Source: a virus. Taken from it: a DNA stretch of 31,352 nucleotides. Of the stretch, positions 1 to 31,352 are shown piece by piece. A model generated the notes under the pieces. It saw nothing but the letters and a program-made list of their open reading frames with translations, did not search any database and was not told where the DNA came from. The stretch is from IMG/VR virus record IMGVR_UViG_3300044858_000928, positions 1 to 31,352 of that record. The stretch is one strand, 5' to 3'. Position 1 is the first letter of the stretch. The number at the start of each line of letters is the position of its first letter. Made by a program: the position numbers and the translations under genes.

Positions 1-30
1 GTCTGCCGCCTTAGGGGTTTGGAGAGCCAT
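1..30 (-). CDS. N-terminus of the gene after the protease, probably major capsid protein (partial)
   Basis: An ATG at 28-30 reads MALQTPKAAD and runs off the left edge. It is preceded by a good ribosome binding site (CGAAAGGAAAACA, minus strand) in the 17-base gap after the protease stop. In siphoviruses the gene after the maturation protease/scaffold is usually the major capsid protein, so that is the positional guess. Ten residues cannot confirm it. Confidence 0.55.
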   Translation of the reverse strand, partial: MALQTPKAAD

Positions 31-47
31 TGTTTTCCTTTCGTGAG

Positions 48-2129
48 TTATTTGGTCAATTCGGCTTCAGCCGCGGTAGCAAATTTCTCTGCTAATGCGC
101 GATAGCCCTTGACTAATAGTGGGTCTGTGGTTGCATTTGCTTTTGCCTTATACATAGCGGCTTTAGTGAGGTTGTCACTAATCTTGCTATCTACTGGCTT
201 CGCGGTTCTCTTAGGACCGCCAGCAACAGCCAAAGACTTTGCTACTGCTAACTCAGACTCCAAGGACGCCGCTTTCGTTTCTGCCGCCTCTTTTGCGGAT
301 AGAAGTGAAGCGACCTCTGTCCTAATGGACTCGGTAGCACTCTTAACAGCCTTTTCTACTATTGCTTCTACATCTGAAGGAACATCTGTTTCTTCAGAAA
401 CCTCTGCGTCAGCGGGTTCGGTTGTTTCTTCCTCAACCTTTTCTTCCGCTGGGGCTTCGTCTGCTTCGGCAGACTTAGGTGTTTCTCCTGGCGCATACAT
501 TTCAGCCGTGGAAACATTTGATGGCTTTTCAACATTAGCGAAATCATTTGTAGTCTTTAGACCATGGTCAGAACCAGGTTGTGCGCATCCGCATTCTAAA
601 CACTTCTCAACATTAGACGACTTCTCTACATCTTCCTTATCGTCTTTGTGGTGCGACTTCTTCTCATCGTCTTCGTGTTGTGACTTAGCCGCCATGTATT
701 TATCCCAGCACTTAGTCGCTTCTTCATCATTCATACCAGCGTCCTTACAACGCTTCATGAAGTCAGGTTTTTTTTCGCCGTCTTTAGGAGTCATTTCTTT
801 ATCCTTGTGGGCGGCAAGTTCAATGTTTTCTTCCATTACTTCTCCTTCTGCTTCCTCTCCCTCATACCATGCAAAGAGGTGGTGGACTGCGGCGATTAGG
901 TGAGAGAGCGAGGATTCTTCGTTATGCCCTTCGCCCATTTCTTCTGCTTCGATAGCGATGAGTTGCGCCAATGCTTGTCGGGCATTGTCGTAAGTCTTCT
1001 TATCAAACTTTACAAGGTCGCCATTGGCATACGACTTAGACATGTCAATAATGTCCTCTGCTAGTAAGTCCATGGCTTTCCTCTCGGTTACTTCCTCTAA
1101 TTGTAAGGTATCCGCCGCCTTCTTGGTCTTTTTCTTGTATGTGCCACCGCGCTTCTTGTATTCGCGGACTACCCAAGCGTTAGCGACAGCCGAAGGGTAC
1201 ACATCAAACTTCTTTTTGGCTTCTGCCTTAACGCGGTTATAGAGTTCTTTATCGGCTGGTTCTGAACCGCCGCCGCCAGCATTGATAGCCTCGTAATTAG
1301 GCTTCTTTTCTTCCTTCTCAATGAGTTCTTCTACCTTCCACCAGCCATTCTCACCTTCGGCAGACTTCGCAAGAACTAACTGGCAGTTAGGGTTAGCAGG
1401 TCTATCTACAAGGCTAACCTCTACGATTTGCCCGTCAATAATTCTTCCGTTCGCCGCCTTTTGGTCACGGACTACGCGTGGGTTTTTAATGCCAATGCTA
1501 AAACCTTTGAGAACGCCAGTATCTACTTTCTTGACCGAAACTGGGTCCACGACAAGAGCATGTATGTAATGCCCATCCGCCTTCTTCTCATACTCCTTCG
1601 CAACACCCGCCGCAATATTGCTGTGCTGTTCACGAATGTTCCCTCCTGACTTAAACCAGTCAGGCATTGCGGTATCAAGCCATGCTGGGTCACAGATTTG
1701 TTGGTCAATATCTAATGAGTCATCTGTCGCCTTGCCATAAACCAGCATTGTGCCGTCAGGATTTCGGTCTGCCTTAACAATGTCGAAGAAGGCTGTCGTT
1801 AGATTAGTCATTGTGGATTTGTCCTTTTTCTTTTCTCGTTGAGCAATACCATTCGCCCAGGATTTCCCTGCGTCACCGCCCCATAGTAACCATGCTATGT
1901 AGCCAGCACTATCTTTGCCCCAGCCTTCGCCTTTCTTATCTACTTCATGGCGGGCGAAATAAGAAACCATGCGGTTGATAGTAGAGAGCGAAATTGCTTT
2001 GCCGTTAGATAGGTCGCGAGCGCGAGCCACACCTACGGCTGTTCCCCCGCGTCCATGCTTCTCACGAAGTTCAAGACCGCGCTTCGCATTATTACGAACC
2101 GCTTGGGGTGGAACAAATCCATCTGCCAT
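48..2129 (-). CDS. Capsid maturation protease fused to an N-terminal phage domain and a C-terminal scaffold-like region
   Basis: A 693-residue protein. Residues 1-100 form a compact domain (FVPPQAVRNNAKRGLELREK ... YIAWLLWGG) found in other phage head-region proteins. About 108-255 is the prohead serine protease (XkdF/HK97 type), with a candidate histidine at 169 (REQHS), a serine at 211 (LKGFSIGI) and the terminal strand EVSLVDRPANPNC. Residues 290-332 resemble DUF5872 (LYNRVKAEAKKKFDVYP). The remainder is charged, helical and low in complexity, with a CLECGC cluster and a coiled coil ending before 693; this is typical of a fused scaffold cleaved on maturation. It would process the capsid during assembly. 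It begins at a TAATG overlap with the previous gene. Protease call strong; exact catalytic residues inferred. Confidence 0.88.
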   Translation of the reverse strand: MADGFVPPQAVRNNAKRGLELREKHGRGGTAVGVARARDLSNGKAISLSTINRMVSYFARHEVDKKGEGWGKDSAGYIAWLLWGGDAGKSWANGIAQREKKKDKSTMTNLTTAFFDIVKADRNPDGTMLVYGKATDDSLDIDQQICDPAWLDTAMPDWFKSGGNIREQHSNIAAGVAKEYEKKADGHYIHALVVDPVSVKKVDTGVLKGFSIGIKNPRVVRDQKAANGRIIDGQIVEVSLVDRPANPNCQLVLAKSAEGENGWWKVEELIEKEEKKPNYEAINAGGGGSEPADKELYNRVKAEAKKKFDVYPSAVANAWVVREYKKRGGTYKKKTKKAADTLQLEEVTERKAMDLLAEDIIDMSKSYANGDLVKFDKKTYDNARQALAQLIAIEAEEMGEGHNEESSLSHLIAAVHHLFAWYEGEEAEGEVMEENIELAAHKDKEMTPKDGEKKPDFMKRCKDAGMNDEEATKCWDKYMAAKSQHEDDEKKSHHKDDKEDVEKSSNVEKCLECGCAQPGSDHGLKTTNDFANVEKPSNVSTAEMYAPGETPKSAEADEAPAEEKVEEETTEPADAEVSEETDVPSDVEAIVEKAVKSATESIRTEVASLLSAKEAAETKAASLESELAVAKSLAVAGGPKRTAKPVDSKISDNLTKAAMYKAKANATTDPLLVKGYRALAEKFATAAEAELTK

Positions 2130-2410
2130 TAGTTATCGTTTCCTGTGGTCATAATTGAAACCGCTATATTCGTTGTGCTTACAGCATACAGTTCTTCGCC
2201 ACCATAAATCTCAAAGACTGTGCCAGTATCTTTTGGCACTTTGTAACCTAAATCCGCACCAGTATTAGATACTGTAGGGTCGCCTACCCACATATTTGCC
2301 GAAGCGTCATTATTAAAGACATAGACCATCACCTTTTGGACACCATCTTCGGCTTGCGCAATTCGGATAGGAGTGGTGCTGATGTTAATTGTTTGGTGAT
2401 AGATAGCCAT
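2129..2410 (-). CDS. Small head-region structural protein, unknown
   Basis: A 93-residue beta-rich protein (KVMVYVFNNDASANMWVGD ... GGEELYAVSTT) with no signal peptide or membrane segment. The strand-rich pattern with a GEELYAV motif near the end resembles small virion surface or decoration proteins, and it lies between the Mu F-like gene and the protease. The ribosome binding site is TAGGAGAAAT. Its stop overlaps the protease start by one base (TAATG), which implies coupled translation. Structural role is inferred from context only. Confidence 0.72.
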   Translation of the reverse strand: MAIYHQTINISTTPIRIAQAEDGVQKVMVYVFNNDASANMWVGDPTVSNTGADLGYKVPKDTGTVFEIYGGEELYAVSTTNIAVSIMTTGNDN

Positions 2411-2447
2411 TATTTCTCCTAGTCAGAGCCTTTACTTTATCAGTTTT

Positions 2448-3278
2448 CTAAAAGTTAGTAATAACATTTATTACCCCGTTGTCGTCTGTAATCTGTTCAT
2501 CATCAGGAATGACGGGCAGGAGTGCGCAACGACAATTAGGATGTTGCGGCGGTTGGGTAGCCCCGCTGTTAAATGACGAACCGATATTGACTACTTGCCC
2601 TTCGTTCTGTGCGCACTTATCGCAAGGGCTAGAAGTCGCCCATTCCATCTGCTCTAATCCGTAGTTTTGGTATCTCTCTACTGTTGCTCTACTGATAGCG
2701 CGATTTGTTTCTGTAATGGCGATAGTTAAGGCGCGGGCTGGGTCAGAAACCGCGTCTTGGATTAGTTTGGCGGCTCTGCTAGGAGATAGACCCAGGGCAA
2801 TAGAGTCAGATAGGGCTGTGCCTAAACGCTCAAAACCAGTTTGGTCTATACCGCGGATAGTAATGCCAAACATCTCTAGTAATCTAAGAAATGCTTTGGT
2901 TGGTTTGAGCAACAATGCCGCCGCCGCGTCACCAGGCTTCCAGTTCTTCCAGTCCACATAATCAGTATCGTCAGCCTTCTTCAGTTCTCGCGCTCGCCGT
3001 ACTGCGTCATCTGCCGCGGTTATACCCAGGGCAAATCCATCCGCCCAAACACGGCGTAGCGCCGCGCCTAGCGCTTCATTATCAAACTGGACATTTAACA
3101 TAGCCCAGGCTCTTGCTCGCGCTCTGTCTTGGGCAGGGTTGTTGCTTACTGCGGGCTGTGTGCGTTGGTATGCCTCAAAGATACGCCGCCAGTTAGCAGA
3201 GCCTCGTAAAGCCGCCCTTATTTTTAATGCGTTCTTTGCCGCCAAGCGCCCATCAACTTCATGAGCGCCCCATTTCAT
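2448..3278 (-). CDS. Phage Mu F-like head morphogenesis protein
   Basis: A 276-residue minor head protein of the Mu F / SPP1 gp7 family. The C-terminal half carries the hallmark: TETNRAISRATVE, then CDKCAQNEG, then QPPQHPNCRCALLPV, which is the family's Cys/His cluster. The N-terminal half is helical. Proteins of this family bind the portal and act in DNA packaging or ejection. The start overlaps the portal stop by four bases (ATGA), as is usual for portal and Mu F pairs. Confidence 0.93.
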   Translation of the reverse strand: MKWGAHEVDGRLAAKNALKIRAALRGSANWRRIFEAYQRTQPAVSNNPAQDRARARAWAMLNVQFDNEALGAALRRVWADGFALGITAADDAVRRARELKKADDTDYVDWKNWKPGDAAAALLLKPTKAFLRLLEMFGITIRGIDQTGFERLGTALSDSIALGLSPSRAAKLIQDAVSDPARALTIAITETNRAISRATVERYQNYGLEQMEWATSSPCDKCAQNEGQVVNIGSSFNSGATQPPQHPNCRCALLPVIPDDEQITDDNGVINVITNF

Positions 3279-5137
3279 GATAGATAGGCTTTTGCTATTG
3301 ACCTAGCCGTTTCCAGGTCGCCCTCGTATGCGCAACGATTAAGGGCTTCTGCCACGACTGTATCTAGTTTGAGGAACTCAAATTGGCGGTTGCGCTTCCC
3401 TTTATTCGCCCATTTCATAAACGCTTTGACCTCGGCTTGAACCTCAGCGTCTATCTCTAGTTCTTCTGCTTCTTCTTCGCTCTCTGTTTCGGGCGCGGGT
3501 GTGCCGTTCTCTGCGATATTCAAGCCATCACCTTGGGCGTTGCCGTCTTCATCAAGTGTTGAAGCGGTCAAAACTTCTTTAGCGTTGATGATTCCATCAG
3601 GAGAGAACAAGAGAACCTCTGCTCCTGCCACCATAATCGGCATATCTGCCTGTGGGGTATCTAGGAGAGGCAGACCTAGTTCAGAGCGGCGCTCATTAAT
3701 AGTCTTGCCCGCGCTTGTGACCTCTATCTGTGACTTACGGGCGTTAGCCTCATCATCAGAACGGCGAGATGTAAGCAACTTGAACTCTAGTTCGCGTGGC
3801 ATACCGAGATAGGTATAAGAAATATTTGTGAGCATTTTGTTTATCCATTGGACAAGTGGCTCAACACCTACGGCTTGTGCGTTAGCCGCTTTTCCTGCCT
3901 CAAACCCTGCGCCGCCTAGTCCGCCCTTAGGGTTGTAGCCGATTTCAGTTGGCTGAACGCCGAAGTGTCCGCAGATAGAAGCAATTAGGAACTCATCAAG
4001 AGTGTCCTTAAACTTTTCGCCGTATCCATCAGGCTGGAATGGCTTTAGTCCAGCAGGGAGAATGCGAGCGCGCATACGCTGGTTAGTCTGTCCAGCAAGG
4101 TCGTCATTTAGGATGTTTTCGTAGTCACGAATGAGTTGTGCGTTTGAGCCAAAGTTAATGTCTGACTCAAAGAATAGTTCAGGCACTACGCCATCTGTGT
4201 ATTCGGCTCTAATCCATTGCTGTCTGCGTAGGTAAATATCCGCAAGAGGCAAGGCTCTTTCTACGGGGCTAAATCCATACACAGAAATAGTGCGGCGGTT
4301 GCGAACCATGTATTGAAGGTCGTCTGAAGTGAACTCACCATCAGCATTTGGGTCATCATCATTTGCTGTGAATTCAGAGCGTGGGAAGCCGTAAAGGATT
4401 TGCTGATACGCAACATTCGGCGGCATAGGGCGCATACCGCGGTCATCAAGGAGTGGCTTAATAGTTCCGCCATCTAAGATTTGTAGTCCGTAGAGTTCGC
4501 CGCCCACAGTCCTCTGAGGCCATACTGCCCATGCGTCAATAACGAGGATTTCTTCTAGCGCAATGTTTATCCAGTCAGCGAAGGTCAAACCATTTGAGCG
4601 GTCAGGGTTCTCCCAAAAACTGCGAACGCGGTCAATGTCTTCTGTGAACTTCTTGCGGGCTTCTGCCATCGCTCTGATGTGGTCTTTGCCTGAGTCAGCA
4701 ATAATCTTTTCAGAAGCGTCTTGTCCAAGCACAATATCAAATTCAAGAGAAATGACTTTGCTCTTAATAACTTCAATACAACGGCGAAGAATATCTATTT
4801 GGTCTGCGCTCGCTCGCAGGGTCTTAAATGGGATAAAGCGTGTTTCGGTTACATTTATGTTCTGCGCTACTTGATATTCATAACGGCGTGGGTCAGGGCG
4901 ACCATCTTCACGGACAGGGTTAATAGCGCCAGGAGTAATCGGCATACCTGGTCCGAAGGGAACAGTTGCCGAGAATGGTGCGCGTGGTAGCGGGTTGCTA
5001 TTGCCGTAAGTTTGTTGTGCGACAAGTCCTGCTTGGCGCATGTCTGCTTCCGTCATAGCGACAGCGCCCGCTGGTAGTCGGGGAGCCTTCTCTATCTCAT
5101 TGGCTACTCGTTTAGCGAAACGGTCAATTAGACCCAT
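3275..5137 (-). CDS. Portal protein
   Basis: A 620-residue portal, the dodecameric ring through which the terminase pumps DNA. Seen: an N-terminal region ending in a proline-rich linker, a wing/stem section (VTETRFIPFKTLRASADQ, then a long acidic helix), the glycine-rich stretch YNPKGGLGGAGFEAGKAANA typical of one siphovirus portal family, and a C-terminal acidic tail (about 535-570, ESEEEAEELEIDAE) before a final helical segment. Size and position next to the Mu F-like gene and protease fit. The start has a good site (AAGGAGAAACAC ATG). Confidence 0.93.
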   Translation of the reverse strand: MGLIDRFAKRVANEIEKAPRLPAGAVAMTEADMRQAGLVAQQTYGNSNPLPRAPFSATVPFGPGMPITPGAINPVREDGRPDPRRYEYQVAQNINVTETRFIPFKTLRASADQIDILRRCIEVIKSKVISLEFDIVLGQDASEKIIADSGKDHIRAMAEARKKFTEDIDRVRSFWENPDRSNGLTFADWINIALEEILVIDAWAVWPQRTVGGELYGLQILDGGTIKPLLDDRGMRPMPPNVAYQQILYGFPRSEFTANDDDPNADGEFTSDDLQYMVRNRRTISVYGFSPVERALPLADIYLRRQQWIRAEYTDGVVPELFFESDINFGSNAQLIRDYENILNDDLAGQTNQRMRARILPAGLKPFQPDGYGEKFKDTLDEFLIASICGHFGVQPTEIGYNPKGGLGGAGFEAGKAANAQAVGVEPLVQWINKMLTNISYTYLGMPRELEFKLLTSRRSDDEANARKSQIEVTSAGKTINERRSELGLPLLDTPQADMPIMVAGAEVLLFSPDGIINAKEVLTASTLDEDGNAQGDGLNIAENGTPAPETESEEEAEELEIDAEVQAEVKAFMKWANKGKRNRQFEFLKLDTVVAEALNRCAYEGDLETARSIAKAYLS

Positions 5138-6173: not shown

Positions 6174-7670
6174 TTATCCGTGAACGACTACGCGATATTG
6201 GTTGCTTGTAGGCGCTACTGAGAAGAGAAGCGTAATTGCGGATGTGCTTGTATGTTGAACATCGCAGATAACTTCAGCGTATGGGCTGGAATTGTCATAA
6301 ACCGCAACAGTCACATCTCTTGTGTTAAGGCTGTGCGTTACTGTGTATGAGGTATTTGTTCCGTCACCGATACTTGCCGCATACTTGCGGACAGCGATAG
6401 CGGTATCAAGAGCGAAGCCTGTTGAGCCAACAGTCAAACCACCGCTTGCTACGACTACGCCAGTAAAGTTATTTCCAGTTAGAAGGACACCATCAGAAGC
6501 GGTATAAGTTCCAGCACCGCTGAACTGTTGGAATACAACAGGGTCAGTTCCAACAGTTGTGACTTCATCAACCATTACCCAGCCAGTATTGGCTAAAGTT
6601 GAGCCAGCATCAACGAAAGTAAAATCTCCGCCAGCCATTTCTGCCGCTGTATCAAAGTCAGTAGCGCGAGTCAGTACCCAGTTAGTTGAAACGCTACCAA
6701 CAGTTGTAAGTGTATAAATACCATTTTGTGCTGTTGCTGTTTGGTTCTTTACAAGGATACGAGAGTTGATAGGTGGAGTAACGCCATCTGTGCTAAATGC
6801 GGCTTGTGTGCCAGCATTAGTAAGTGTCGCACCTACACCGCTTGTTCCGTTGTCATAAGTTGCGTTAAGGTTCGCAGTAGTCGCGGCGTATGAAGCGGCG
6901 TGAATATTTAGACCCTGCGCTACATCATCTACATACTGCTTGTTTGCCGCGTCTGTGGATACAGTTGGCGTACCAAGGTTTGTGATTTTGTAAGTAGCAA
7001 AAGATACATCCGCTGTTGGAACTGCGAGCGCAGAAAGATTAATTGTGGAGTGTGCCGCATTGTCGTGCGTTGGTGTTCCGTGTGTATGGTCAGCGCGAGC
7101 AATATTCGCCGAAGAACCATTACCACTTGAAGCACCGAAAGATGTTTGTGCGGTAACGCTACCGAATGACGGCATAGCGTGTTTGTGGTCATCACGGGCT
7201 GGGGCTGTTCCAGTTCCAACAGTTGCGGTATCGCCAATAGCCTGAGTGCTTGCGGCGTTACTTGTTAGCGGTGGTGTGCCGTGAGTGTGGTCGGTGCGAG
7301 CATAGAAATTGCTAGAGCCATTTCCGCTTGACGCGCCGTAAGAAGTTTGTGCTGTGACTGAACCAAATGGAGAAACCTGTGACCATGACGCACCATCATC
7401 AAAATAAAGTAGTGCTTGGTCTGTTGCGTAATAGAGCCTTCCAGCCGTTCCAGCGGATGGGCGAGAAGCAAAAGTTCCGTAGAGAACTTCAGACTCAGCC
7501 TGTGTAGATTCCCATGCGCTTCCGTTATAGAAGTAAAGTTCGTTGTCGCCTGTGTTGTAGTAAATCTGACCAGCGGTAGGTGACGATGGCGCTGTGCCTA
7601 GATTCTGAATTACCGCATTCTGAAGTTCATTCTTGTTGAGGTCAATGCTTACTAAAAACTTACGCGCCAT
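6174..7670 (-). CDS. Tail fibre / receptor-binding protein with HxH repeats
   Basis: A 498-residue fibre. Residues 30-100 hold two copies of the Y-Y-x-T ... N/D-G-x-x-W module (GQIYYNTGDNELYFYNGSAW; GRLYYATDQALLYF). Two 32-residue repeats follow (102-133 and 169-200), each ending in ARxDHTHGTP, with a third His pair DDHKHAMP at 160-167. HxH pairs coordinate metal ions in several trimeric phage fibres (T4-type). Residues about 250-400 have the pattern common in fibre shafts (ANKQYVDDVAQGLN; RILVKNQTATAQNGIYTL). The C-terminal 70 residues form a beta domain (YTVTHSLNTRDVTVAVYDN) often used for host binding. Confidence 0.85.
   Translation of the reverse strand: MARKFLVSIDLNKNELQNAVIQNLGTAPSSPTAGQIYYNTGDNELYFYNGSAWESTQAESEVLYGTFASRPSAGTAGRLYYATDQALLYFDDGASWSQVSPFGSVTAQTSYGASSGNGSSNFYARTDHTHGTPPLTSNAASTQAIGDTATVGTGTAPARDDHKHAMPSFGSVTAQTSFGASSGNGSSANIARADHTHGTPTHDNAAHSTINLSALAVPTADVSFATYKITNLGTPTVSTDAANKQYVDDVAQGLNIHAASYAATTANLNATYDNGTSGVGATLTNAGTQAAFSTDGVTPPINSRILVKNQTATAQNGIYTLTTVGSVSTNWVLTRATDFDTAAEMAGGDFTFVDAGSTLANTGWVMVDEVTTVGTDPVVFQQFSGAGTYTASDGVLLTGNNFTGVVVASGGLTVGSTGFALDTAIAVRKYAASIGDGTNTSYTVTHSLNTRDVTVAVYDNSSPYAEVICDVQHTSTSAITLLFSVAPTSNQYRVVVHG
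7071..7367 (-). repeat. Two tandem 32-residue coding repeats in the fibre gene
   Basis: The copies are at 7272-7367 and 7071-7166, with a period of 67 codons. They encode FGSVTAQTSYGASSGNGSS and FGSVTAQTSFGASSGNGSS, each followed by a DHTHGTP motif. The unit is likely a fibre-shaft repeat that can expand or shrink by recombination. Confidence 0.8.
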
Positions 7671-7962: not shown

Positions 7963-8507
7963 TATCTAGTCACCTCGGGAGATACAACCACTTGACCTTG
8001 TACCAAGCGGGTCACGATACCTGCGGGAGAAGTAATCTCGCAGTCATAATAATAAACGCCGTCATCTATTGCCGCGGTCTGTGCCGCTGTCGCATGGACG
8101 GATACTTTGCCCTGTGCGCCTGTGACTGTAATGCCAGCACTTGTTGAAAGACTTAGCGCGGCAACAGGGTCACTAGGTAAAGAACGAAGTTGTAAAGCCG
8201 CTGAGTAGCCTGTGATATTCGCAGGGCTTGTAGCAAGACCGCCTGAGATGTATGTGCCTGTTGCGCCATTAGTCACAGTAAATTGTGAAGCCGTTACAGT
8301 TGCGATAGTAACATCTTGAAGGTTATAGATACTTGGAATAACTCCGTTGATAGAAACCTTCTGCCCCGCTGTAAAACCATTTGTTGCTGTGAATGTAACA
8401 GTCGTGCCATTACCGACAATGTTAGTAATAGTGGCGGGTTGTGTATAGAGAAAATCTATATACCAGTCCGCGCCCTGGTCTATCGTAGTGTTATATACAA
8501 CTGCCAT
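7962..8507 (-). CDS. Phage structural protein with an inserted Ig-like/beta module
   Basis: A 181-residue protein. The ends (VYNTTIDQGADWYIDFLYTQPA and SPANITGYSAALQLRS ... IVTRLVQGQVVVSPEVT) form one unit seen in phage structural genes next to terminase. Residues about 28-93 look like an inserted beta module of the type NGTTVTFTATNGFTAGQKVS ... YNLQDVTIATV, common in fibres and secreted proteins. The stop/start junction with the terminase gene is TAATG. No enzymatic motif is seen; attachment or neck function is inferred. Confidence 0.75.
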   Translation of the reverse strand: MAVVYNTTIDQGADWYIDFLYTQPATITNIVGNGTTVTFTATNGFTAGQKVSINGVIPSIYNLQDVTIATVTASQFTVTNGATGTYISGGLATSPANITGYSAALQLRSLPSDPVAALSLSTSAGITVTGAQGKVSVHATAAQTAAIDDGVYYYDCEITSPAGIVTRLVQGQVVVSPEVTR

Positions 8508-9931
8508 TATGCTCCCAGGCTAGTTCCGCAATGAGGACATAATAGCGTTTTTCTTGGTGACGGACGCTTACAAGAAGGACAGAATACGGCGAGCGCCCCA
8601 AGTGATAATGACGCAATAGAGCCTTCGTTTAGTTCCGTCAGCGCCCACACAAGTGCGTCCATGCGGTCAGGAGATTTTGCTACATCGGGTGTCCAAGTAA
8701 CCATTTGGTCTTCTAGTTCAGGGAATGCGCCTATGTGATGAACCCTGCCCTGTTCGTATAAAGCACTAATGGGTTCTGCTCTTACTCTCTTGCCGCGAGA
8801 GGCATTTACCTTTTTGACTGGCACAAGTCCGTCAATAGTTCTGATGAGTTGTGTAATCATGTCGCCGCCATTATTGGCTTCAGCGATTATGCGGTCACAT
8901 TTCCAGGCATGGTATTCCTCAACCGCTTTACGCGCCCATTGGTCAGGAGTGCCGCGCATAGATTTATCGCTCAGTATGTAGAAGTGTCCGTCTGTTCCAG
9001 CGCCCGCTACCACAATGCCAGTTTCGTCAGATTCCTCTCCTGAAGTAACGGCTGGGTCAATGGCTACGACTAGGCGGACTAGATTTGGTGCGAAATCTGG
9101 TGCTACCCGACTGTTCTCTATCATGTTGCGGTTCCATAGTGCGCCCTCAACATCTTCCAAGAGTTCGCCGTAGAGTTCCTGGCGACCTGTGCGAGTTCCT
9201 GCGTATCGTGCCTGAAGTTCTGTAAGCGCCGCCGCAGAGAGGTTTGCGGCATTGTCGAATGTTGAACCCCTGGTGGTATAGACAGACCCATCCTCACGCC
9301 CCACCCACTCCCGCAAGATACGGATAGGTTTAGGCGTTGTCGTCACAACAGCCTTGGGGTGTTTTCCAATACGGAGAGCAGGGGCAATACCTTCGTGCCA
9401 GGTTTCATACGGGTATTTCCATTTTGCGATTTCGTCAGCCCATACGCCCGCCAGGTTAAAACCACGACCAGCGTCAGGATTATCTGCGCCGAACATGTGT
9501 ATCTTCTGCCCGTCCTTGAAATTGACCTGCCATGACGAGCGGTTATAGGTGAAATCAACAAGGTTCACTAAGCCCTTACGCTGTAACACTCGCAAGATAC
9601 CGCTTGGACCCTCCACACACATCACACGGGTATCGCTGAATGTTTCGCCGATAATCGCCCACTCAGTAGGCGCACCATCAGGAGCCTTGGGGTTAGCAAG
9701 CACTTTGTCTATAAGCCACTCTGCGCCTGTCCTGGTCTTGCCCCAGCCACGCCCTGAAAGAATGAGCCATACGCCCCAGTTACCCTCAGGCTCTTGTTGT
9801 TCAGGTCTGCCAATAAACCACCAAGGCAGAAACTTCATCTCCTCCGCTTTTTCTTCGGGGAGAGCCTCAATGATTTCCTGAGCCTTCTCTAGGGGCATGG
9901 CGGCTAGTTCGTCAAACAGACTAAGCGCCAT
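8507..9931 (-). CDS. terL: Terminase large subunit with a C-terminal zinc ribbon
   Basis: A 474-residue packaging motor. The ATPase has Walker A SGRGWGKT (59-66) and Walker B GVWADE (162-167). The RNase H-like nuclease shows VAIDPAVTSGEESDE (D292), IIAEANNGG (E351) and SPDRMDALVWAL (D422/D425). Unusually, the protein ends in CPSCKRPSPRKTLLCPHCG (C451, C454, C465, C468), a complete zinc ribbon that a minimal terminase lacks. It cuts and translocates DNA into the prohead, using the neighbouring small subunit to find DNA. The start follows the small subunit stop by four bases. Confidence 0.96.
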   Translation of the reverse strand: MALSLFDELAAMPLEKAQEIIEALPEEKAEEMKFLPWWFIGRPEQQEPEGNWGVWLILSGRGWGKTRTGAEWLIDKVLANPKAPDGAPTEWAIIGETFSDTRVMCVEGPSGILRVLQRKGLVNLVDFTYNRSSWQVNFKDGQKIHMFGADNPDAGRGFNLAGVWADEIAKWKYPYETWHEGIAPALRIGKHPKAVVTTTPKPIRILREWVGREDGSVYTTRGSTFDNAANLSAAALTELQARYAGTRTGRQELYGELLEDVEGALWNRNMIENSRVAPDFAPNLVRLVVAIDPAVTSGEESDETGIVVAGAGTDGHFYILSDKSMRGTPDQWARKAVEEYHAWKCDRIIAEANNGGDMITQLIRTIDGLVPVKKVNASRGKRVRAEPISALYEQGRVHHIGAFPELEDQMVTWTPDVAKSPDRMDALVWALTELNEGSIASLSLGALAVFCPSCKRPSPRKTLLCPHCGTSLGA

Positions 9932-9934: not shown

Positions 9935-10351
9935 TTACTCCTGTTGTTGTTTCGCTTTGATGAGTTCTACTAATGTCTGCTTTGCGTCTAGTTGGACATT
10001 GATGGGCGCGCCATTCGTTCCTGATAGTTCCACCTTAGACTGTCTGCCCCAGCGTTGAGGGAACGAACGCTCTAACCACCAAGAGGCGGCTTGCCAGGTT
10101 TCATCAGCGGCTTTCTGAACCCGAAGCACATTTCTCATCTCTGCTTGCGCTCTTGCCTGGGTTACTGTGTCGCTTAATTCTCTTAAAATAGGTTTTGCGC
10201 CTGGTTTCTCTGCTTCCGCCATCCATTTGTAGAAGGTTGCCCTATTTATGTTCGCATAATCGCATGCTGTTTCTATGTAATTACCCGCAAGTAGGGCTTC
10301 TTCTAGTCGTTTTATGACCATTTTGTTCAATTTTGGCTTACGACCCGCCAT
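9935..10351 (-). CDS. Terminase small subunit
   Basis: A 138-residue protein with an N-terminal helix-turn-helix (VIKRLEEALLAGNYIETACDYANINRATFYKWM) and a helical oligomerisation region ending in the family-typical ASWWLERSFPQRWGRQSKVEL. This is the DNA-recognition subunit that loads the large terminase on the genome. It lies directly upstream of terL in the same operon and overlaps the preceding small gene by 14 bases. Confidence 0.9.
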   Translation of the reverse strand: MAGRKPKLNKMVIKRLEEALLAGNYIETACDYANINRATFYKWMAEAEKPGAKPILRELSDTVTQARAQAEMRNVLRVQKAADETWQAASWWLERSFPQRWGRQSKVELSGTNGAPINVQLDAKQTLVELIKAKQQQE

Positions 10352-10526: not shown

Positions 10527-11099
10527 TTAGATATCCCAGTTCTTAGCCTTTACTAAATCCTTCTTCAGTAAAGTAATTTCTTCTAGGCAGTTCGGGCAGG
10601 GGATAGTGATGTGTGGCTCTCCCTGGCGTTCGGCGCTTGCCTTCTCAAATTGGGATTCTAACTTTGCGGCGATTTCGTCAATGTTCTCTTGCTTGTTTGG
10701 TTCGGCGAGCGCGGCAAAGTCAGGGTCTAACTTTATGTCGGGGAAGAATATGTCCAAGAACTCAGGGCTTGTGAACTCTTTGAGTTCTAAGGTTAGGTCA
10801 GCCGTCCATTGAGCATACTCAGATGTGCGGTTATCTATAATTCGGAACTCTTTAGCCTTCTTGGCTGGTAGGTCTGTAATCACAACATCTACTTCTGTGT
10901 AGCCTAGTTCTTTGAGGGCGCGATAGCGGGTGTGTCCAGCCACGATAGTCAAAGAAGTATCTACGATTATGGGCGCTTGGTATCCGAACTCTTGGATAGA
11001 CGCTTTGACTTTCTCGATAGCCACATCATTCTTGCGCGGATTACGCCAATACGGAATAAGCCTATCAATAGCGACTTTCTGAACAACAAGGTTACTCAT
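10527..11099 (-). CDS. ParB/sulfiredoxin-like nuclease-domain protein 1
   Basis: A 190-residue protein. Residues 6-95 are a ParB/Srx domain: AIDRLIPYWRNPRKNDVAIE, then ASIQEFGYQAPIIVD, then the nucleotide-binding signature VAGHTRYRAL (53-62) and FRIIDNRTSEYAQW. The C-terminus carries IPCPNC, possibly half a zinc knuckle. Phage proteins of this type are nucleases or CTPase-type DNA-binding proteins, often near terminase or methyltransferases. It is second to last in a run with another ParB-like protein, a PP-loop ATPase and a methyltransferase. Confidence 0.88.
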   Translation of the reverse strand: MSNLVVQKVAIDRLIPYWRNPRKNDVAIEKVKASIQEFGYQAPIIVDTSLTIVAGHTRYRALKELGYTEVDVVITDLPAKKAKEFRIIDNRTSEYAQWTADLTLELKEFTSPEFLDIFFPDIKLDPDFAALAEPNKQENIDEIAAKLESQFEKASAERQGEPHITIPCPNCLEEITLLKKDLVKAKNWDI

Positions 11100-11101: not shown

Positions 11102-11791
11102 CTACTTCCTTTGACTAGGGATAGCCTCGCCAGCGGCGTAAGCCTTCCGAATTTCTAATTGCCTGTCCGTTTCCCACGACTTCCCGTATTCCGCATTCTC
11201 AAAGAGTCTAGCGAAACCTGTAACATACTTTAGTCGGGCTAGTTCCTCAGGTTCAAGTCCAACCTCATTACAGATGGCTTCGTCTGTTGCGCCATTTCTC
11301 AGCATGTTAAAGACTATCTGCCCCATACCCGCTACGGAGTGCTTACCGCGAGCGCGGTTGTGACGAACAGTTGCCGCCATACGCTCGTTCATAGATTTAT
11401 CCAGGACTACGATAGGCAAGCGACCTTCGTTCTTGTCGTATAAATCTTTGTTACGCCGCATGGTTGTATAGCGGTGAAAGCCATCTACGATTACATACTT
11501 GTCTATCTCAGGGTCATAGACTGTAACAACGGGCTGAGTGTATCCATCATGGGAGATAGATACATACAGAAGGCGCATTTCGTTGCTTGCCACGCTATTC
11601 GGGTTGTAGTCGTTTGCCTGGACTCTCTCTACTGGAACCCATTGGACATTGGCTATCGGCTGGTCGTTGCGTGGGTGTAATGTCTGATAGACAAAAGTAT
11701 TGAGCGCGTTTAAGAAATCTAATTTGTCTTCCGCGGCATTGTAAGCCTCGGTCAGATTATCCCTTAAAGTGTTCGGCAAGTTTATGCTCAT
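11102..11791 (-). CDS. ParB-like nuclease-domain protein 2 (IbrB-like)
   Basis: A 229-residue protein. The ParB/Srx domain spans about 48-150, with WVPVERVQANDYNPNSVA, GYTQPVVTVYD, the signature VDGFHRYTT (102-110) and RHNRARGKHS (143-152); a helical domain follows (EVGLEPEELARLKYV). This arrangement and the adjacent PP-loop gene match the IbrB/IbrA pair, originally named as regulators of immunoglobulin-binding genes in E. coli and now seen in many phages. It overlaps the PP-loop gene by 35 bases and has its own site (AAAAGGAAGCGC ATG). Biochemical activity is unknown; a DNA-directed role is inferred. Confidence 0.85.
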   Translation of the reverse strand: MSINLPNTLRDNLTEAYNAAEDKLDFLNALNTFVYQTLHPRNDQPIANVQWVPVERVQANDYNPNSVASNEMRLLYVSISHDGYTQPVVTVYDPEIDKYVIVDGFHRYTTMRRNKDLYDKNEGRLPIVVLDKSMNERMAATVRHNRARGKHSVAGMGQIVFNMLRNGATDEAICNEVGLEPEELARLKYVTGFARLFENAEYGKSWETDRQLEIRKAYAAGEAIPSQRK

Positions 11792-17208: not shown

Positions 17209-17216
17209 GAAGTCCG

Positions 17217-18581: not shown

Positions 18582-18644
18582 AACATACGCGCATAAATTA
18601 CGCGTGTCAAGGATATTTCACAAAGTTTTTGTAACTATTTTTGT
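18582..18644 (-). promoter_or_regulatory. Promoter P2 with upstream dyad
   Basis: Minus strand -35 TTGACA (18605-18610), 17-base spacer, -10 TATGTT (18582-18587). The upstream dyad TTACAAA-AAC-TTTGTGA spans 18618-18634, and a further ACAAAAA copy 12 bases away. It drives the 18534-17217 genes. Confidence 0.88.
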
Positions 18645-18652
18645 GGCGTTGC

Positions 18653-19033
18653 TTACACTAATTCTTTTTCTGCGATTTGGATTTTTACACCAGGAACTAA
18701 TCCATAATTCTTTTTTGCGTATATCTCAACCACTTGCGCGTCATCTAAATAAGCAATAGCAGTTAATGAATCTAAGACAGCACGAATTAACTTATCTAAA
18801 TCAGGTGGCACACTTGGAAAATCTCGTTTGACTGTTTTGGGTTTCTGAAGAATAAATTGCATTGTAATTGTTACTGGTTCGCGTGTGGGTCGAGCGCCCG
18901 CCTTCCTGGCGGCGAAGGCAATAGAAGACCGCCAAGCCGCGAGCGCCGACCCCTGACTATGAATGATGTGACCATTAATCACTTTCATAGAACCCTGGGA
19001 GATGGGTTGTCCTTCTACGCGAAATTCAATCAC
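18653..19033 (-). CDS. RusA-type Holliday junction resolvase
   Basis: A 126-residue endonuclease. The family signature is PPDLDKLIRAVLDSLTAIAY (76-95) with D78, D80, K81, D88 and the following LDD (96-98). RusA cuts four-way junctions formed during phage recombination and replication. It starts with GTG in a GTGA overlap with the previous stop. Its partners here are the annealing protein, SSB and the Cas4-like nuclease. Confidence 0.9.
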   Translation of the reverse strand: MIEFRVEGQPISQGSMKVINGHIIHSQGSALAAWRSSIAFAARKAGARPTREPVTITMQFILQKPKTVKRDFPSVPPDLDKLIRAVLDSLTAIAYLDDAQVVEIYAKKNYGLVPGVKIQIAEKELV

Positions 19034-19263: not shown

Positions 19264-20064
19264 CTAGTGATTTACGCCACGCAATTTCGCCATGAGTTCC
19301 GCCTTCACACTTGGGTCAAGTCGCCCTGCTTTTTCTTCGCGCTCGCGAAGTTCTCTCTGCCACTTCTCATGTTGCTCCCGTTCTAGTTCCCGTCTTGCTT
19401 CGGCTTCTGCCTTAGCCTTTGCCGCTTTTTCCTCAGCGGTCAGGGTTCTAACGGGTAGCGGCTCATCTCCCCAGCGCCCCTGGTTAAGCCAGGTTGAAGG
19501 GTGAGGGGTGAACTCATCTACCCGATTAGGGTCACTAGCAAACCGCCTCGCGCCCTCAATAATGTCTTCGGGTGTTGCGCCCTTGACCGCCTTCTCAAAC
19601 GCCGCCTTAGCGACTATCTTGCCCACTTTTCTTGGATAGATTTTCCAAAACACATCAAATGACTGGGTGGTTATGGGTGGTTCAACAGGATGGTTCTTGG
19701 GGCGTTGTTGTCGCCCCGTGACTGGCGTTGTTGTCGCCCCGTCTGTTTCTCCTTGTCGCCCCGTCACGCTGTCGCCCCGTAATCTATACAGGTTAATTGT
19801 GTATCGGTGCGGTCTGCGGTCTTCCCTACATGTGGCTGAACCGCCCGCATGTTTCTCCATACGCACATACCCCAGCCTCACAAGGCTATTGACGCAACGC
19901 TGTACAGTCCTAATGGACACACTTGCTTTGTTCGCAATAGTCGCCTGAGAAGGCCAAGCCTCTGTGCCATCATCACTTGCGTGGTCAGCGATAACCAAAA
20001 GAATCATCTTCTCTGTCGTAGGTAAGTTTGTTCGCCATACTTCCGCCATAACCCGAATGCTCAT
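19264..20064 (-). CDS. Replication initiator-like winged-helix protein
   Basis: A 266-residue protein. The N-terminal part is a HTH_36-type winged helix: MILLVIADHASDDGTEAWPS, then TIANKASVSIRTVQRCVNSL, then YVRMEKHAGG. A Pro/Thr linker follows, then FDVFWKIYPRKVGKIVAKAA ... PHPSTWLNQGRW, the conserved block of phage replication proteins. The last third is a charged coiled coil (about 195-255). It likely recognises the origin or loads a host helicase. ATG 20064 (GGGAGGCTT upstream) is preferred over 20085. Confidence 0.85.
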   Translation of the reverse strand: MSIRVMAEVWRTNLPTTEKMILLVIADHASDDGTEAWPSQATIANKASVSIRTVQRCVNSLVRLGYVRMEKHAGGSATCREDRRPHRYTINLYRLRGDSVTGRQGETDGATTTPVTGRQQRPKNHPVEPPITTQSFDVFWKIYPRKVGKIVAKAAFEKAVKGATPEDIIEGARRFASDPNRVDEFTPHPSTWLNQGRWGDEPLPVRTLTAEEKAAKAKAEAEARRELEREQHEKWQRELREREEKAGRLDPSVKAELMAKLRGVNH

Positions 20065-20386
20065 AAGCCTCCCATACCTGGTCAAATGTTATGCCGTATT
20101 GCTCCAAATCAAAGCGGGCGCGCCGAAGTTGGGCAGGATATTTTTTTGGTTGGGATAAGGAGCGGCGTTCCATACTGGTCATGCCACCCCAAACCCCATA
20201 GTCTTCATGCGCGAACGCATACGAAAGACATTCCTTCCAAATCGGGCAAGCCGCGCAAATGCTTCTTACGGCGTTGATGTAATCGTAAGCCTTAATACTT
20301 CTTTCTTCTTCAACTGCGTAAAACAAATCGGTGTTTGAGCCAAAACATGCTCCCGATTTCCAATTTACTTCGCTGAACTTGGGCAT
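19985..20386 (-). CDS. WhiB-like Fe-S transcription factor
   Basis: A 133-residue WhiB protein. Cluster cysteines are C14 (GACFG), C44, C47 and C53 (CAACPIWKEC), followed by the beta-turn GVWGG (64-68) that contacts sigma factor. The family is restricted to actinobacteria and their phages (for example mycobacteriophage TM4). It binds the principal sigma factor region 4 and could govern the three repeated promoters, but no AT-hook is evident. The last 80 bases overlap the start of the replication initiator. ATG 20386 (GGAG upstream) is chosen. Confidence 0.92.
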   Translation of the reverse strand: MPKFSEVNWKSGACFGSNTDLFYAVEEERSIKAYDYINAVRSICAACPIWKECLSYAFAHEDYGVWGGMTSMERRSLSQPKKYPAQLRRARFDLEQYGITFDQVWEAYEHSGYGGSMANKLTYDREDDSFGYR

Positions 20387-21039
20387 CCAATTTCTCCAGT
20401 CGGGTCGTAGTATCCGCAATACTTTGCGCAAAACGAAACCCGCTCGGTTGGTTCGGGCGCTGGGTCGTTGTTAGCAACTATCGCTCGAATATCATCTAAC
20501 CATGCCAGCCCCTCTAAAGCAATAGCCTCAGAGTATGGTTCTAAGTGAACTCTAATGTCTGCCATTTCTCCATCCCTGGGGATAGCGACTAGAGAAACAT
20601 GATTTACTGTGTAACCCTCCTGGGCTAATAACCAGCCGTATAGGTGAACCTGATACAACTGAGCGGCGCTTGGGAAATACCGAAGGCTCTTGACCTTTGT
20701 AGTTTTCCAATCCACAACTAGTCCAATGTCTTTGATAAATAAATCCACATTGCCAGTAATCTTTGGGTTACTGACCTTGTGTTCAATAAGAAAGTTATCG
20801 CCAAATGGGTCTTCGCGCACTATGGCTTCTTGAATACCATGATGAATAAAAGTTCCCATAATTGCGGCTAGGACTTCGGTGTTTGGATTAGTCGCGGGGG
20901 TGCGCGAAATCATGTGCCAAACTCGCCGCCTACAACCGCCTACGGCACTTGGACCCACATCAACCTGTTTAGACCGCTCCCGCTGTCCATCATGCGCTGT
21001 AAGCGCCGTAGATAGCATTTTGTGTAAGTCTATGTTCAT
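20365..21039 (-). CDS. Cas4/RecB-like Fe-S exonuclease (PD-(D/E)xK)
   Basis: A 224-residue nuclease. Motifs: a lone Cys36 (GGCRRR), H66/H67, GNVDLF (D99), VVDWKTTK (D110, K112) and QLYQVHLYG (QxxxY, 127-135), with C204, C208 and C219 at the end. One early and three late cysteines are the 4Fe-4S pattern of Cas4/AddB-type nucleases. It would process ends to single strands for the annealing protein. There is no CRISPR locus, so this is the phage recombination version. ATG 21039 is in an ATGA junction. Confidence 0.9.
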   Translation of the reverse strand: MNIDLHKMLSTALTAHDGQRERSKQVDVGPSAVGGCRRRVWHMISRTPATNPNTEVLAAIMGTFIHHGIQEAIVREDPFGDNFLIEHKVSNPKITGNVDLFIKDIGLVVDWKTTKVKSLRYFPSAAQLYQVHLYGWLLAQEGYTVNHVSLVAIPRDGEMADIRVHLEPYSEAIALEGLAWLDDIRAIVANNDPAPEPTERVSFCAKYCGYYDPTGEIGCPSSAK

Positions 21040-24489: not shown

Positions 24490-24551
24490 AACCTACGGCA
24501 TACGCCTACGCGTGTCAAGAACTTTTACAAAGTTTTTGTAACTATTTTTGT
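24490..24551 (-). promoter_or_regulatory. Promoter P3 with upstream dyad
   Basis: Minus strand -35 TTGACA (24513-24518), 17-base spacer and -10 TAGGTT (24490-24495). A perfect 17-bp dyad TTACAAA-AAC-TTTGTAA (24525-24541) lies 6 bases upstream of the -35, with a second ACAAAAA block 12 bases on. This is the clearest member of the three cassettes. Confidence 0.88.
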
Positions 24552-24566
24552 GGCGTTGCCCACACT

Positions 24567-24682
24567 ATTCGTATGCTCTATACCAATATACGAATGTTAA
24601 ATACTAATCAAAATGCCATTGGTATCAAAAAATCTACGCGTATATTCTTATGATTCGTATGGGTCTATACCAATATACGAAT
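24567..24682. repeat. Two AT-rich inverted repeats (possible origin or operator)
   Basis: Unit A is ATTCGTAT (24567-24574), 13 bases, ATACGAAT (24588-24595). Unit B is ATTCGTAT (24653-24660), 14 bases, ATACGAAT (24675-24682). Both loops contain TCTATACCAAT, and an inverted copy ATTGGTAT lies between them (24618-24625). The region is AT-rich and non-coding and lies just upstream of P3. It fits iterons of an origin or binding sites of a phage repressor or activator. With P3 it fills the 236-base gap 24451-24686. Confidence 0.8.
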
Positions 24683-27603: not shown

Positions 27604-28698
27604 TCAATTCGTAGTAATTGTTAGGGTAATAGTAACCCGTTCAGGACCATCTTCGCCTGGTTGGACATTTAGACCAACAATGCGATAAACCTGGTCAAGA
27701 CCAGTCGGGAAGCGTGGGTCAGTAATACGAAGTCGTGCGTCATCACCAATGTTGTATGTGCCAAATTGTGGTTCGGCAAATGCTGGAACAACCAGTTTAA
27801 TAATTGGCGGCGGCTCAGAAAGAGCCAAGACTTGTCCAAGTGCTAATTCGTTTAGGAGTGTTTGGTCAGTTGTATCTGAGTAATTTGCTTGGTCTTCAAG
27901 AAGCGCCCAGCCCGCGGTTAATTTAGATGTGTCTTGCGCGGTTGCGCTTAGACGACCTTCGTTAGAACCAGCCCCCAGGACATACAAAGTATTCGCAACA
28001 ATAGAGCCGTCTTCAGGGTATTCATACTCCACAACATTGCCAGCGGGGAACTCAAAGACAGGAATAGCAGGATTACTAGGTGAATAGACTGTACCTGTGC
28101 GGGGATAACCTAAGATAAGGGTTTTAGTCGGTACGCCATTTATGTCGTATGCAACATCAATAGTAAAATCAAACCCATCATCTGCGCGTGATAAATCCTG
28201 GATAGCGCCATACACAGTTTTTAGTTCGTAGTCATAATAAACGCGGTCCACAAGAACGCCTGAGGTTTCTGAGCCTGTAATAACGCCAATGTCGCCGCTC
28301 GCTATTGCCTGTGCGTTATCTATAAGGGTGCGGGCTATAACTAATTGGTCTGTGTTTGTAAATGCCGTAGTGGTTGAGATACGGCGGCGCTCAAAATAAG
28401 ACTCAAACTCTCTAGCGGTAAATGTGAATTCCTGGCTCGCTGAGTTATAGGTTCTGCCCCATACAACGCCGCCCCAAATAAGGGTTCCGTTTCTATCTAC
28501 ATACAGAGCAACGCGCCCTGGCTCTGTGCCGTCAGCAACATTAAAGCCAAATGAGTTAATACCCGACAGGAGTATGCGCGCTTGAAATGTGCCAGCCTGA
28601 TTTAACTGTTGCGTAAAAGATACGCCAGTTAAAGGCAATTCAGCGATTATCTCGTTTGTGAGCAGGTCAGCAAAGAGATAGCGGTATGTTGTAGTCAT
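27604..28698 (-). CDS. Minor tail protein of the ReqiPepy6 Gp37-like type
   Basis: A 364-residue protein. Features are the beta-rich start (YRYLFADLLTNEIIAELPLT GVSFTQQLNQAG), RVALYVDRNGTLIWGGVVWG, FTAREFESYFERRRI, and NTLYVLGAGSNEGRLSATA later. These occur in the tail-tip proteins of actinophages (Gp37-like, related to tail hub domains). It likely forms the tail tip next to Dit. Ends ERVTITLTI. Confidence 0.85.
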   Translation of the reverse strand: MTTTYRYLFADLLTNEIIAELPLTGVSFTQQLNQAGTFQARILLSGINSFGFNVADGTEPGRVALYVDRNGTLIWGGVVWGRTYNSASQEFTFTAREFESYFERRRISTTTAFTNTDQLVIARTLIDNAQAIASGDIGVITGSETSGVLVDRVYYDYELKTVYGAIQDLSRADDGFDFTIDVAYDINGVPTKTLILGYPRTGTVYSPSNPAIPVFEFPAGNVVEYEYPEDGSIVANTLYVLGAGSNEGRLSATAQDTSKLTAGWALLEDQANYSDTTDQTLLNELALGQVLALSEPPPIIKLVVPAFAEPQFGTYNIGDDARLRITDPRFPTGLDQVYRIVGLNVQPGEDGPERVTITLTITTN

Positions 28699-29089: not shown

Positions 29090-29809
29090 CTATTGATACC
29101 ATTCAATAATACAAACACCTGAACCGCCTGCTGGTCCAGTACGAGTAGAATTATCTGCACCTGTACCACCAGCACCGCCGCCTGTATTTGCTCTGCCTGC
29201 TTGTGGCGCTACACCACCGCCGTAATTGCCGCCACTACCGCCGCCGTTAGACCCTCTTGTAAAATAATTTCCTATGTTTGTGCCTGTAGCACCACCACCG
29301 CCGCCACCAAGACCATACGCGCCTGGGGCGCCCGGTACATAAACAGCGTTTGCTGCGCCAGCAGTATCATGTTGTCCTGGTCCTGAACCAGCACCTGAAC
29401 CTTCACCTGAAGCCGCCATAGTAGGTGTACCACCTGCTTGCGCTGCCACTCCGCCTAATCCTCCAATAGCAGTAATCAAACCGCCAAAAGTTGAATCAGA
29501 ACCACTTGAACCTGGTCCTGAACCACCCGAACCGCCACTTCCGCCAGCACCAATAGTTACTGTGAGAGAAGAACCAGCCGATAATTGAACAATTCTGCGA
29601 ACAACTCCGCCACCGCTACCAGCACCAGCGCACTGATAACTATTATTAGGAGTTCCGCCACCGCCGCCACCGCCAGCCGCTAAAATTACCTCAACCCAAC
29701 CATTGTAAGTTGAAGCAGTTGGAGCAGTAAAAGTTTGTGTTGATGTAATAGTTTGTGACTGTTTTCCTGTTATCCCACCGCCAGCGGCAGGAAATACTGT
29801 GCTACCCAT
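29090..29809 (-). CDS. Glycine-rich tail adhesin-like protein
   Basis: A 239-residue protein. A short N-terminal beta part (QTITSTQTFTAPTASTYNGW) is followed by dense Gly runs (AAGGGGGGGTP, GAGGSGGSGGSGPG, GGGGGATG, GGGSGGNYGGG), ending VCIIEWYQ. This resembles the glycine-rich (polyglycine II-type) receptor-binding tips of T4-like and other phages. It may contact the host surface. The glycine codons make the DNA repetitive and GC-rich compared with neighbours. Confidence 0.82.
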   Translation of the reverse strand: MGSTVFPAAGGGITGKQSQTITSTQTFTAPTASTYNGWVEVILAAGGGGGGGTPNNSYQCAGAGSGGGVVRRIVQLSAGSSLTVTIGAGGSGGSGGSGPGSSGSDSTFGGLITAIGGLGGVAAQAGGTPTMAASGEGSGAGSGPGQHDTAGAANAVYVPGAPGAYGLGGGGGGATGTNIGNYFTRGSNGGGSGGNYGGGVAPQAGRANTGGGAGGTGADNSTRTGPAGGSGVCIIEWYQ

Positions 29810-30126: not shown

Positions 30127-30129
30127 AAT

Positions 30130-30879
30130 TTACAACGCTCCCATCATTAGTAGTGTGAGGTAATCAGGTATAGAGCCTACACCATTCGTACCCGTTTGGA
30201 CAAATTCAGTACCGCTAAAAGTAGTGCCTGTATAGGTGGTTCCTGAATAGGTTTTATTGCTTAGAGCCTGTGAGCCTGTAAGGGTCACAACGCTAGAGTT
30301 AATGGCAACAGAAGGTATTGGACCCGTGCCGTTTGTGACTGTTATGCCTGTTCCGCCTTGGACTTCTGTAATGTCACCAATAGGTAACTGTGTAGTAGCG
30401 GTTACGCGGGTATCCGTAATGTTGCCTGAGTTAATCTGTGTGACTGCCGCGCCTACTGTTACAGTCGCAATAGAAATTGAATTAGTCGGTGTCGCTGGGG
30501 CTACTGGCGAACCTGATGGAGTTCCCGCGACTACTTGGAAAGTCACATTGTCTAATACGCCTGTGTAATAAGAGTCGTTAATTGTGACCACAATTTTGTC
30601 AATGCGAGGATTAGTTGGGTCAGCAATACCAATAGGTAAGACTACTGTCGCGTCATTGTAAAAATTATAGACACCCATGTTGGCTTGGTAGTTACCAACG
30701 ATTACTCCCCAACCCTGAGCCACTTCAACAGTCATGGCGGCTGGACTACTTGCGGATACGGCTAATGATGATGTGCCGATAATTCCTGTGGTCGCCCAAA
30801 TGGCTTGCATTGTGAGTCGGTCATTCTCGGCAGGGTGGAGTGCGTTCTGAAGCCAAGAAGGCGGGGTGCGTAGTGCCAT
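30130..30879 (-). CDS. Tail fibre-type protein
   Basis: A 249-residue protein from ATG 30879 (CTAGGAGAATC upstream); the longer upstream start has no good site. N-terminus: ALRTPPSWLQNALHPAENDR LTMQAIWATTG, then beta segments (DKIVVTINDSYYTGVLDNVT), a collagen-like region (PSGSPVAPATPTNSISIATV), and shaft repeats of the GGTGITVTNGTGPIPSVAIN type. The end DYLTLLMMGAL echoes the end of the Mtd-like protein (DYQTLNLMGCL). Confidence 0.83.
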   Translation of the reverse strand: MALRTPPSWLQNALHPAENDRLTMQAIWATTGIIGTSSLAVSASSPAAMTVEVAQGWGVIVGNYQANMGVYNFYNDATVVLPIGIADPTNPRIDKIVVTINDSYYTGVLDNVTFQVVAGTPSGSPVAPATPTNSISIATVTVGAAVTQINSGNITDTRVTATTQLPIGDITEVQGGTGITVTNGTGPIPSVAINSSVVTLTGSQALSNKTYSGTTYTGTTFSGTEFVQTGTNGVGSIPDYLTLLMMGAL

Positions 30880-30886
30880 GATTCTC

Positions 30887-31352
30887 CTAGATGTAAGCCG
30901 AGTTCCAAGTAATTGTAACACTCGTATCGCCAGCGGCAGTTCCCGTGCCATCAACAGTAAAAGTGTTATTGCCAGGTTGTGCGTCAAACCATTCGCCCGA
31001 AGTCAATAGATTACGCGCTGGTTGTCCATTGAGCGTGACGAGTTTGTTATACAAATCCACAATTAAGTGGTCGGTGCTTATGAGCGTAGTAGTAAAGTTT
31101 AATTGTTTATTTTGAGTCAGATTACCCAATTCAGGGTTAATAATTGGACCCTTTAAGTCAATAGTTGGGTAGGTTGTAGCCCAGCCTGAGTTATTGACTG
31201 TGGTTGTTTTATACGAAGTGCCGCCGCCGTAATCTAAATCATAGGTGCGGTCATAAGCACGACCCTGGTCAGCACTATAAGTGAATACCGCTGTCTGAGT
31301 ATTGCCGTTATAGATGTTTGGGTCAGGGCAGAAAAAAGTCACTTGGGCAACG
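30887..31352 (-). CDS. Distal tail (Dit-like) protein, 5' end missing
   Basis: The frame is open to the right edge (VAQVTFFCPDPNIYN ...), so the first visible GTG at 31342 is not a real start. The fragment shows FTYSADQGRAYDRTYDLDYG, a beta core and the C-terminal domain LTSGEWFDAQPGNNTFTVDG ... VTITWNSAYI. This last part, with a CPDP segment earlier, is characteristic of siphovirus distal tail proteins. Confidence 0.85.
   Translation of the reverse strand, partial: VAQVTFFCPDPNIYNGNTQTAVFTYSADQGRAYDRTYDLDYGGGTSYKTTTVNNSGWATTYPTIDLKGPIINPELGNLTQNKQLNFTTTLISTDHLIVDLYNKLVTLNGQPARNLLTSGEWFDAQPGNNTFTVDGTGTAAGDTSVTITWNSAYI

Follow-up and report, generated by a model that had tools for sequence, protein, structure and literature searches.

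The viral contig IMGVR_UViG_3300044858_000928 from IMG/VR (31,352 nucleotides, referred to below as the window; the record holds nothing beyond it, so that a count for the 'full genome' is a count on the same contig) raises the question why DNA of this length should contain no copy of three palindromic tetranucleotides, GATC, AGCT and ACGT. The initial annotation, which reported this absence together with a single CCGG and a few GGCC, proved right but understated the extent of the depletion. Exact counting gave 0 GATC, 0 AGCT, 0 ACGT, 1 CCGG and 3 GGCC, the positions reported for the last two words being correct within one base (Table 1), while the first-order Markov expectations are 89, 136, 108, 89 and 107, and the second-order ones 76, 100, 65, 81 and 118, respectively. 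A null model stricter than the Markov chains, in which synonymous codons are shuffled genome-wide and every protein and the codon pool are kept, yields about 89, 112, 83, 64 and 86 copies (slightly lower values with a smaller gene set, for which none of 300 shuffles went below 43 for any of the five words). The rarity is thus not explained by codon shuffling, which still leaves about 64–112 copies expected. We conclude that the window very probably comes from a lineage of tailed freshwater actinophages in which selection has removed the sites recognised by numerous Type II restriction enzymes, with a turnover of the avoided sites specific to each lineage.

The depletion extends well beyond these five words. 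Other palindromes had been described as present, which holds for CATG, GCGC and CTAG (as well as CGCG), whose counts are near expectation, but not for TCGA (12 vs. about 97 expected) and TGCA (11 vs. about 95), both depleted about 8-fold, or for GTAC, depleted in part (28 vs. 100). Among the non-palindromic tetranucleotides even the lowest stands at about two thirds of its codon-shuffle expectation. For longer words we used the published elimination rule (observed/expected < 0.1 with more than 15 copies expected; PMC6286503), with the codon shuffle in place of that paper's compositional-bias formula. Several words are missing altogether (observed/expected: GAGAC 0/33, GGGAC 0/27, CGWCG 0/50, CTYRAG 0/25, GTMKAC 0/25, GTWWAC 0/26) and others nearly so (CCAGA 1/56, GGYRCC 1/27, GCWGC 2/61, ACSGT 2/50, CASTG 2/50), and CAATC and GATGC are, like GTAC, partially depleted. 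According to this rule, 23 sites from the REBASE list of Biopython are eliminated in the window, some of them overlapping shorter eliminated words, which leaves about 17 independent motifs eliminated or nearly so. The same rule returned 4–25 eliminated REBASE sites in the other members of the phage family described below and 0–1 in 14 control loci with terminase relatives, except for two loci with 3 and 7.

The identity of the missing words points to restriction. Seven of the 8 pentanucleotides eliminated in the window lie inside known 5-base restriction sites, compared to 56 of 480 other words (Fisher p = 3e-6), the background rate being 13%; the elimination of CTCGA is a by-product of the loss of TCGA. 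In 35 contigs of the family the corresponding figures are 148/216 and 1870/16013, although these contigs are related and the data therefore not independent. On average about 4 tetranucleotides and about 6 pentanucleotides are eliminated in each family contig, whereas 23 control loci taken together show two and six. The route of the loss can be read from the comparison with a close relative, G002 (L113, L114, L115), which carries 259 CCGG sites, about twice the Markov expectation of 134, while the window has lost these sites. At codons for identical residues, the window retains 0 of 41 CCGG and 1 of 21 GGCC sites of G002, as against 46% of the non-palindromic tetranucleotides. In a slightly larger comparison, which took in a MuF gene pair of 26% identity left out of the former one, 58 of the 63 lost sites where the residues are identical show a difference of exactly one base, i.e. 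sites are lost mostly via a single synonymous base change. Since the eliminated pentanucleotides are mostly known restriction sites, host restriction, to which the initial annotation had attributed the loss, is well supported as its cause, with the host's own enzymes as the presumed agent.

Searches of IMG/VR with the terminase and the portal protein of the window revealed 30 and at least 80 relatives, respectively, the latter at 70–100% identity; no plasmid matches and no near matches in phages were found. Nearly every relative lacks a clear-cut set of tetranucleotides, and the sets differ between relatives. Among the 61–63 members of the portal tree with enough expected copies, and with 'absent' defined as below 20% of the Markov expectation, ACGT is absent in 61, AGCT in 39, CCGG in 25, TCGA in 22, GGCC in 21 and GATC in 19; losses of TGCA (15), AATT (11), TTAA (10), GTAC (9) and ATAT (9) are rarer. 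The minimum numbers of changes of the missing sets on this tree, in which 33 of 55 inner branches are strongly supported, sum to about 50, a count that depends on the 20% threshold and on short contigs. Even phages from one metagenome differ: 3300042691 is the source of the window-like L125 and of L002, G002 and L163, each with its own set, CCGG being abundant in G002 and absent (0) from L002, and GGCC occurring 23 times in L002 and four times in 11.5 kilobases (kb) of L125. By comparison, the control loci, which surround relatives of the terminase in cellular genomes, seldom avoid anything except CTAG. The initial annotation had offered a choice between several enzymes and one enzyme with degenerate sites; the former stands, while the latter fails because no single degenerate site covers the words and because the relatives have lost or retained each word independently of the others. 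As a separate observation, seven of the eight relatives L190, L189, L173, L175, L176, L179, L187 and L136 have no ATAT at all (0 of 29–65 expected), the remaining one, L136, having 8 of 82; in L190 CATC is eliminated besides ATAT.

As to the host, the window encodes a WhiB-like transcription factor, an accepted marker of actinophages (PMC10202952, PMC6802176), whose motif is also present in nine other loci of the family, some of which are overlapping pieces of one phage. We therefore infer that the host is an actinobacterium. The prophage route did not lead further than a terminase match of 57% identity, the best in genome contigs, in a Frankia record. A single-contig genome of the same class (G375, 1.34 Mb, about 48% guanine + cytosine (GC)) led to the presumed host order, which, judging from genome size and GC content, is probably 'Candidatus Nanopelagicales' (acI); its genomes measure 0.7–2.2 Mb, and 196 of 241 encode a rhodopsin. 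The window resembles the Planktophila phages E7 and F5 and their metagenomic relatives (PMC10202952), as judged from their description, in the whiB gene, the size of 38–42 kb in the longest relatives and the GC content from the mid-40s to 50%. A cyanobacterial host had been considered on account of the high restriction-modification counts of bloom formers and of a Microcystis phage among the terminase matches, and was dropped when the WhiB protein was found; the Microcystis phage (72% GC) exhibits no comparable avoidance.

The search for enzymes in the candidate hosts was successful in part. Of three methyltransferase families surveyed in the presumed host order, C5 enzymes exceed the cut-off in 43, N6/N4 enzymes in 23 and D12 enzymes in 9 of 241 genomes, usually one per genome. 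Endonucleases adjoining C5 methyltransferases comprise an HpaII-type (L256, E = 1e-71), an EcoO109I-type (L242) and an NgoPII-type protein (L241, E = 5e-49), for which family membership suggests the specificities CCGG, GGNCC-like and GGCC, respectively; the HpaII-type and NgoPII-type systems reside in separate genomes. Candidate enzymes for CCGG and GGCC were thus found, but not for AGCT, ACGT or GATC.

These data can be accommodated by the following scenario. A site present at entry would be cut in any host that carries the matching enzyme, and variants without the site, mostly with one synonymous base changed, would spread until the site is gone; as the enzymes of the host population change, selection would lapse on some sites and start on others. 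We propose that this change of enzymes over time is why each lineage has a different set. The avoided set may be the union over the enzymes of many strains that the phage meets rather than those of one cell, because fitting enzymes exist in the presumed order but are scattered over genomes. Going further, it is conceivable, at somewhat less than even chances, that the missing words of a lytic phage family record the pooled restriction repertoire of microdiverse, streamlined hosts with hardly any restriction-modification systems per cell, and that they predict undescribed enzymes, given that several of them, namely ATAT and CATC among the relatives and ACSGT and CAATC in the window itself, are outside the enzyme list used.

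Several observations weigh against the proposed reading. ATAT, absent in some relatives, is the site of no enzyme in that list. The small number of methyltransferases from the three families in genomes of the presumed host order does not alone account for about 17 eliminated sites, and for most sites, AGCT, ACGT and GATC among them, no enzyme was identified in the order. No relative of the portal protein was found in 251 genomes of the order, which leaves the host unproven (searches with the portal protein in the class of L033 and the phylum of L076 likewise revealed nothing close), and, as Nanopelagicales have no clustered regularly interspaced short palindromic repeats (CRISPR; PMC10202952), no link to the host through spacers is possible.

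Could a single host species with a very large Type II set, comparable to those of Helicobacter or bloom-forming cyanobacteria and amounting to some 17 systems per cell or more, have imposed all the losses? Genera rich in such systems do exist (about 16 per genome in Microcystis; PMC8262939), and many sites are near zero simultaneously, as steady exposure to one host would give. Nevertheless, WhiB points to Actinobacteria and not to cyanobacteria, and the presumed acI genomes, a host assigned below the phylum by indirect evidence, mostly possess zero or one methyltransferase of the families surveyed. One multi-enzyme host as the source of the whole set is therefore doubtful, and we regard this explanation as less likely than not; in another form of it, the host would be a different actinobacterium, with many systems in one cell. 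Far less probable still is that site-specific nucleases of the phage itself destroy the host DNA, with a genome devoid of their sites sparing itself: the window does encode an HNH protein as well as RusA-like and Cas4/exonuclease-like proteins, but ordinary phage nucleases in such small number could not serve about 17 specificities, and the sets change between close relatives. Composition, mutational bias, codon usage or imitation of the host composition can practically be dismissed. Some neighboring words are mildly depleted, and codon usage correlates with that in the presumed acI genomes (r reaching 0.89, although one unrelated locus correlates with them as well); still, both types of null model expect dozens to more than a hundred copies and the non-palindromic tetranucleotides are not depleted to a similar degree. 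Moreover, in the genomes of the presumed host order most avoided sites are near expectation and none is near zero, which excludes mimicry of this order. An artefact of library preparation or assembly, such as enzymatic fragmentation, has an equally negligible probability, for although all relatives are metagenome contigs, phages from the same metagenome carry different sets, and the losses are synonymous substitutions in continuous genes.

Avoidance of restriction sites in phages is an established phenomenon: in a survey of non-temperate double-stranded DNA phages, elimination was found in about 7% of the pairs of a Type II site and a phage (Rusinov et al. 2018, PMC6286503). Judged by the same criterion, the window resembles those phages in having lost orthodox Type II sites almost completely. 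It differs in the elimination of about 17 independent motifs, some of them non-palindromic, from a single contig, and in that a whole family exhibits lineage-specific sets; the number of sites, their non-palindromic members and the turnover are the unusual parts. The survey, on the other hand, tested the sites of known host enzymes, whereas those of the window were scored without knowledge of the host enzymes. For E7 and F5, an ArdA-like protein and glycosyltransferases, and not site loss, have been named as possible means of anti-restriction (PMC10202952); neither gene was recognised among the frames of the window that were scanned. No paper describing such avoidance in freshwater actinophages was found in the open literature, and none naming any of six of the metagenomes by number. 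If the missing words are sites of host enzymes, the genome of an uncultured phage could tell which restriction systems are at work in its hosts, with neither a host in hand nor CRISPR spacers, and the hosts concerned possibly rank with the commonest bacteria of fresh water. As the sets turn over even between closely related phages, gains and losses of avoidance can be timed, and it can be tested whether streamlined bacteria defend themselves collectively, with a different enzyme in each strain, while the words outside the listed enzymes point to specificities worth seeking.

The window is part of a tailed-phage genome, about 31 kb of a probable 38–42 kb. Profile searches revealed terminase, portal, head, tail, replication and nuclease genes, as in tailed double-stranded DNA phages (Table 1). 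No match to Rfam and no tRNA was found in the window, and no integrase was seen in the scanned part of the reading frames of this partial contig.

Table 1. Coordinates of features of the window, with the evidence for each
Feature	Coordinates	Strand	Evidence or remark
Whole contig	1..31352		GATC, AGCT, ACGT absent, both strands; ~14 more restriction sites eliminated or nearly
Sole CCGG	29332..29335		Exact count
GGCC, one of three	4518..4521		Exact count; other two at 17287, 19952
Major head protein-like structural protein	48..2129	-	PHROG 617 E=9e-9
Portal protein, family marker	3275..5137	-	PHROG 2662 E=1e-56; 80 relatives kept, 70-100% identity
Head decoration protein	6174..7670	-	PHROG 2647 E=5e-47
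Terminase large subunit	8507..9931	-	PHROG 979 E=2e-41; query that gave 30 relatives
Terminase small subunit	9935..10351	-	PHROG 4102 E=1e-38
Stand-alone ParB-N domain protein	10527..11099	-	PF02195 E=8e-10
ParB-like and PAPS-reductase/DUF3440 proteins	11102..12887	-	
Methyltransferase-fold frame	12871..13767		General methyltransferase-fold families
HNH protein	14501..14818		
Pyrimidine-dimer DNA glycosylase	17217..17696	-	PF03013 E=3e-26
WhiB-like transcription factor	19985..20431	-	PF02467 E=5.6e-15, over Pfam cut-off
Minor tail protein	27604..28698	-	PHROG 1885 E=2e-58; used in G002 site-loss comparison
45-nucleotide repeat, three copies	17180..17224, 18616..18660, 24523..24567		73-93% alike to reference copy

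Methylation possibly provides the family with a second means of anti-restriction. Like phages with DNA methyltransferases of their own, 7 of 44 family records encode an N6/N4 methyltransferase over the cut-off, which in many cases is joined C-terminally to a ParB-N domain. The window differs from them, as no DNA methyltransferase was recognised among its scanned frames; the methyltransferase-fold frame listed in Table 1 does not match DNA methyltransferases. The stand-alone ParB-N protein of the window shows 31% identity to the N-terminus of L206:3589-4776, a fusion of this domain with an N6/N4 DNA methyltransferase, and its gene lies upstream of the terminase genes, apparently in the same place as the fusion in the relatives. 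L190/G051, in which few tetranucleotides are avoided, encodes an N6/N4 methyltransferase-like protein as well as a pair of proteins resembling a split C5 methyltransferase. A trade-off between methyltransferases and site avoidance, suggested by L190, is confounded with phylogeny and is not claimed. In the relative L208 (6274-7559), two adjacent frames are 39% and 46% identical to a single C5 methyltransferase from the presumed acI genomes and appear to be a split or broken version of it.

Among the remaining genes, a ParB-like protein adjoins a PAPS-reductase/DUF3440 protein that is weakly similar to BrxP and DndC. The pair resembles IbrB/IbrA and could have a bearing on DNA modification. The copies of the 45-nucleotide repeat fall for the most part between genes of the minus strand and are adjoined by related sequence; they are possibly phage promoters or operators. 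Finally, the presence of a pyrimidine-dimer DNA glycosylase would fit a sunlit habitat.

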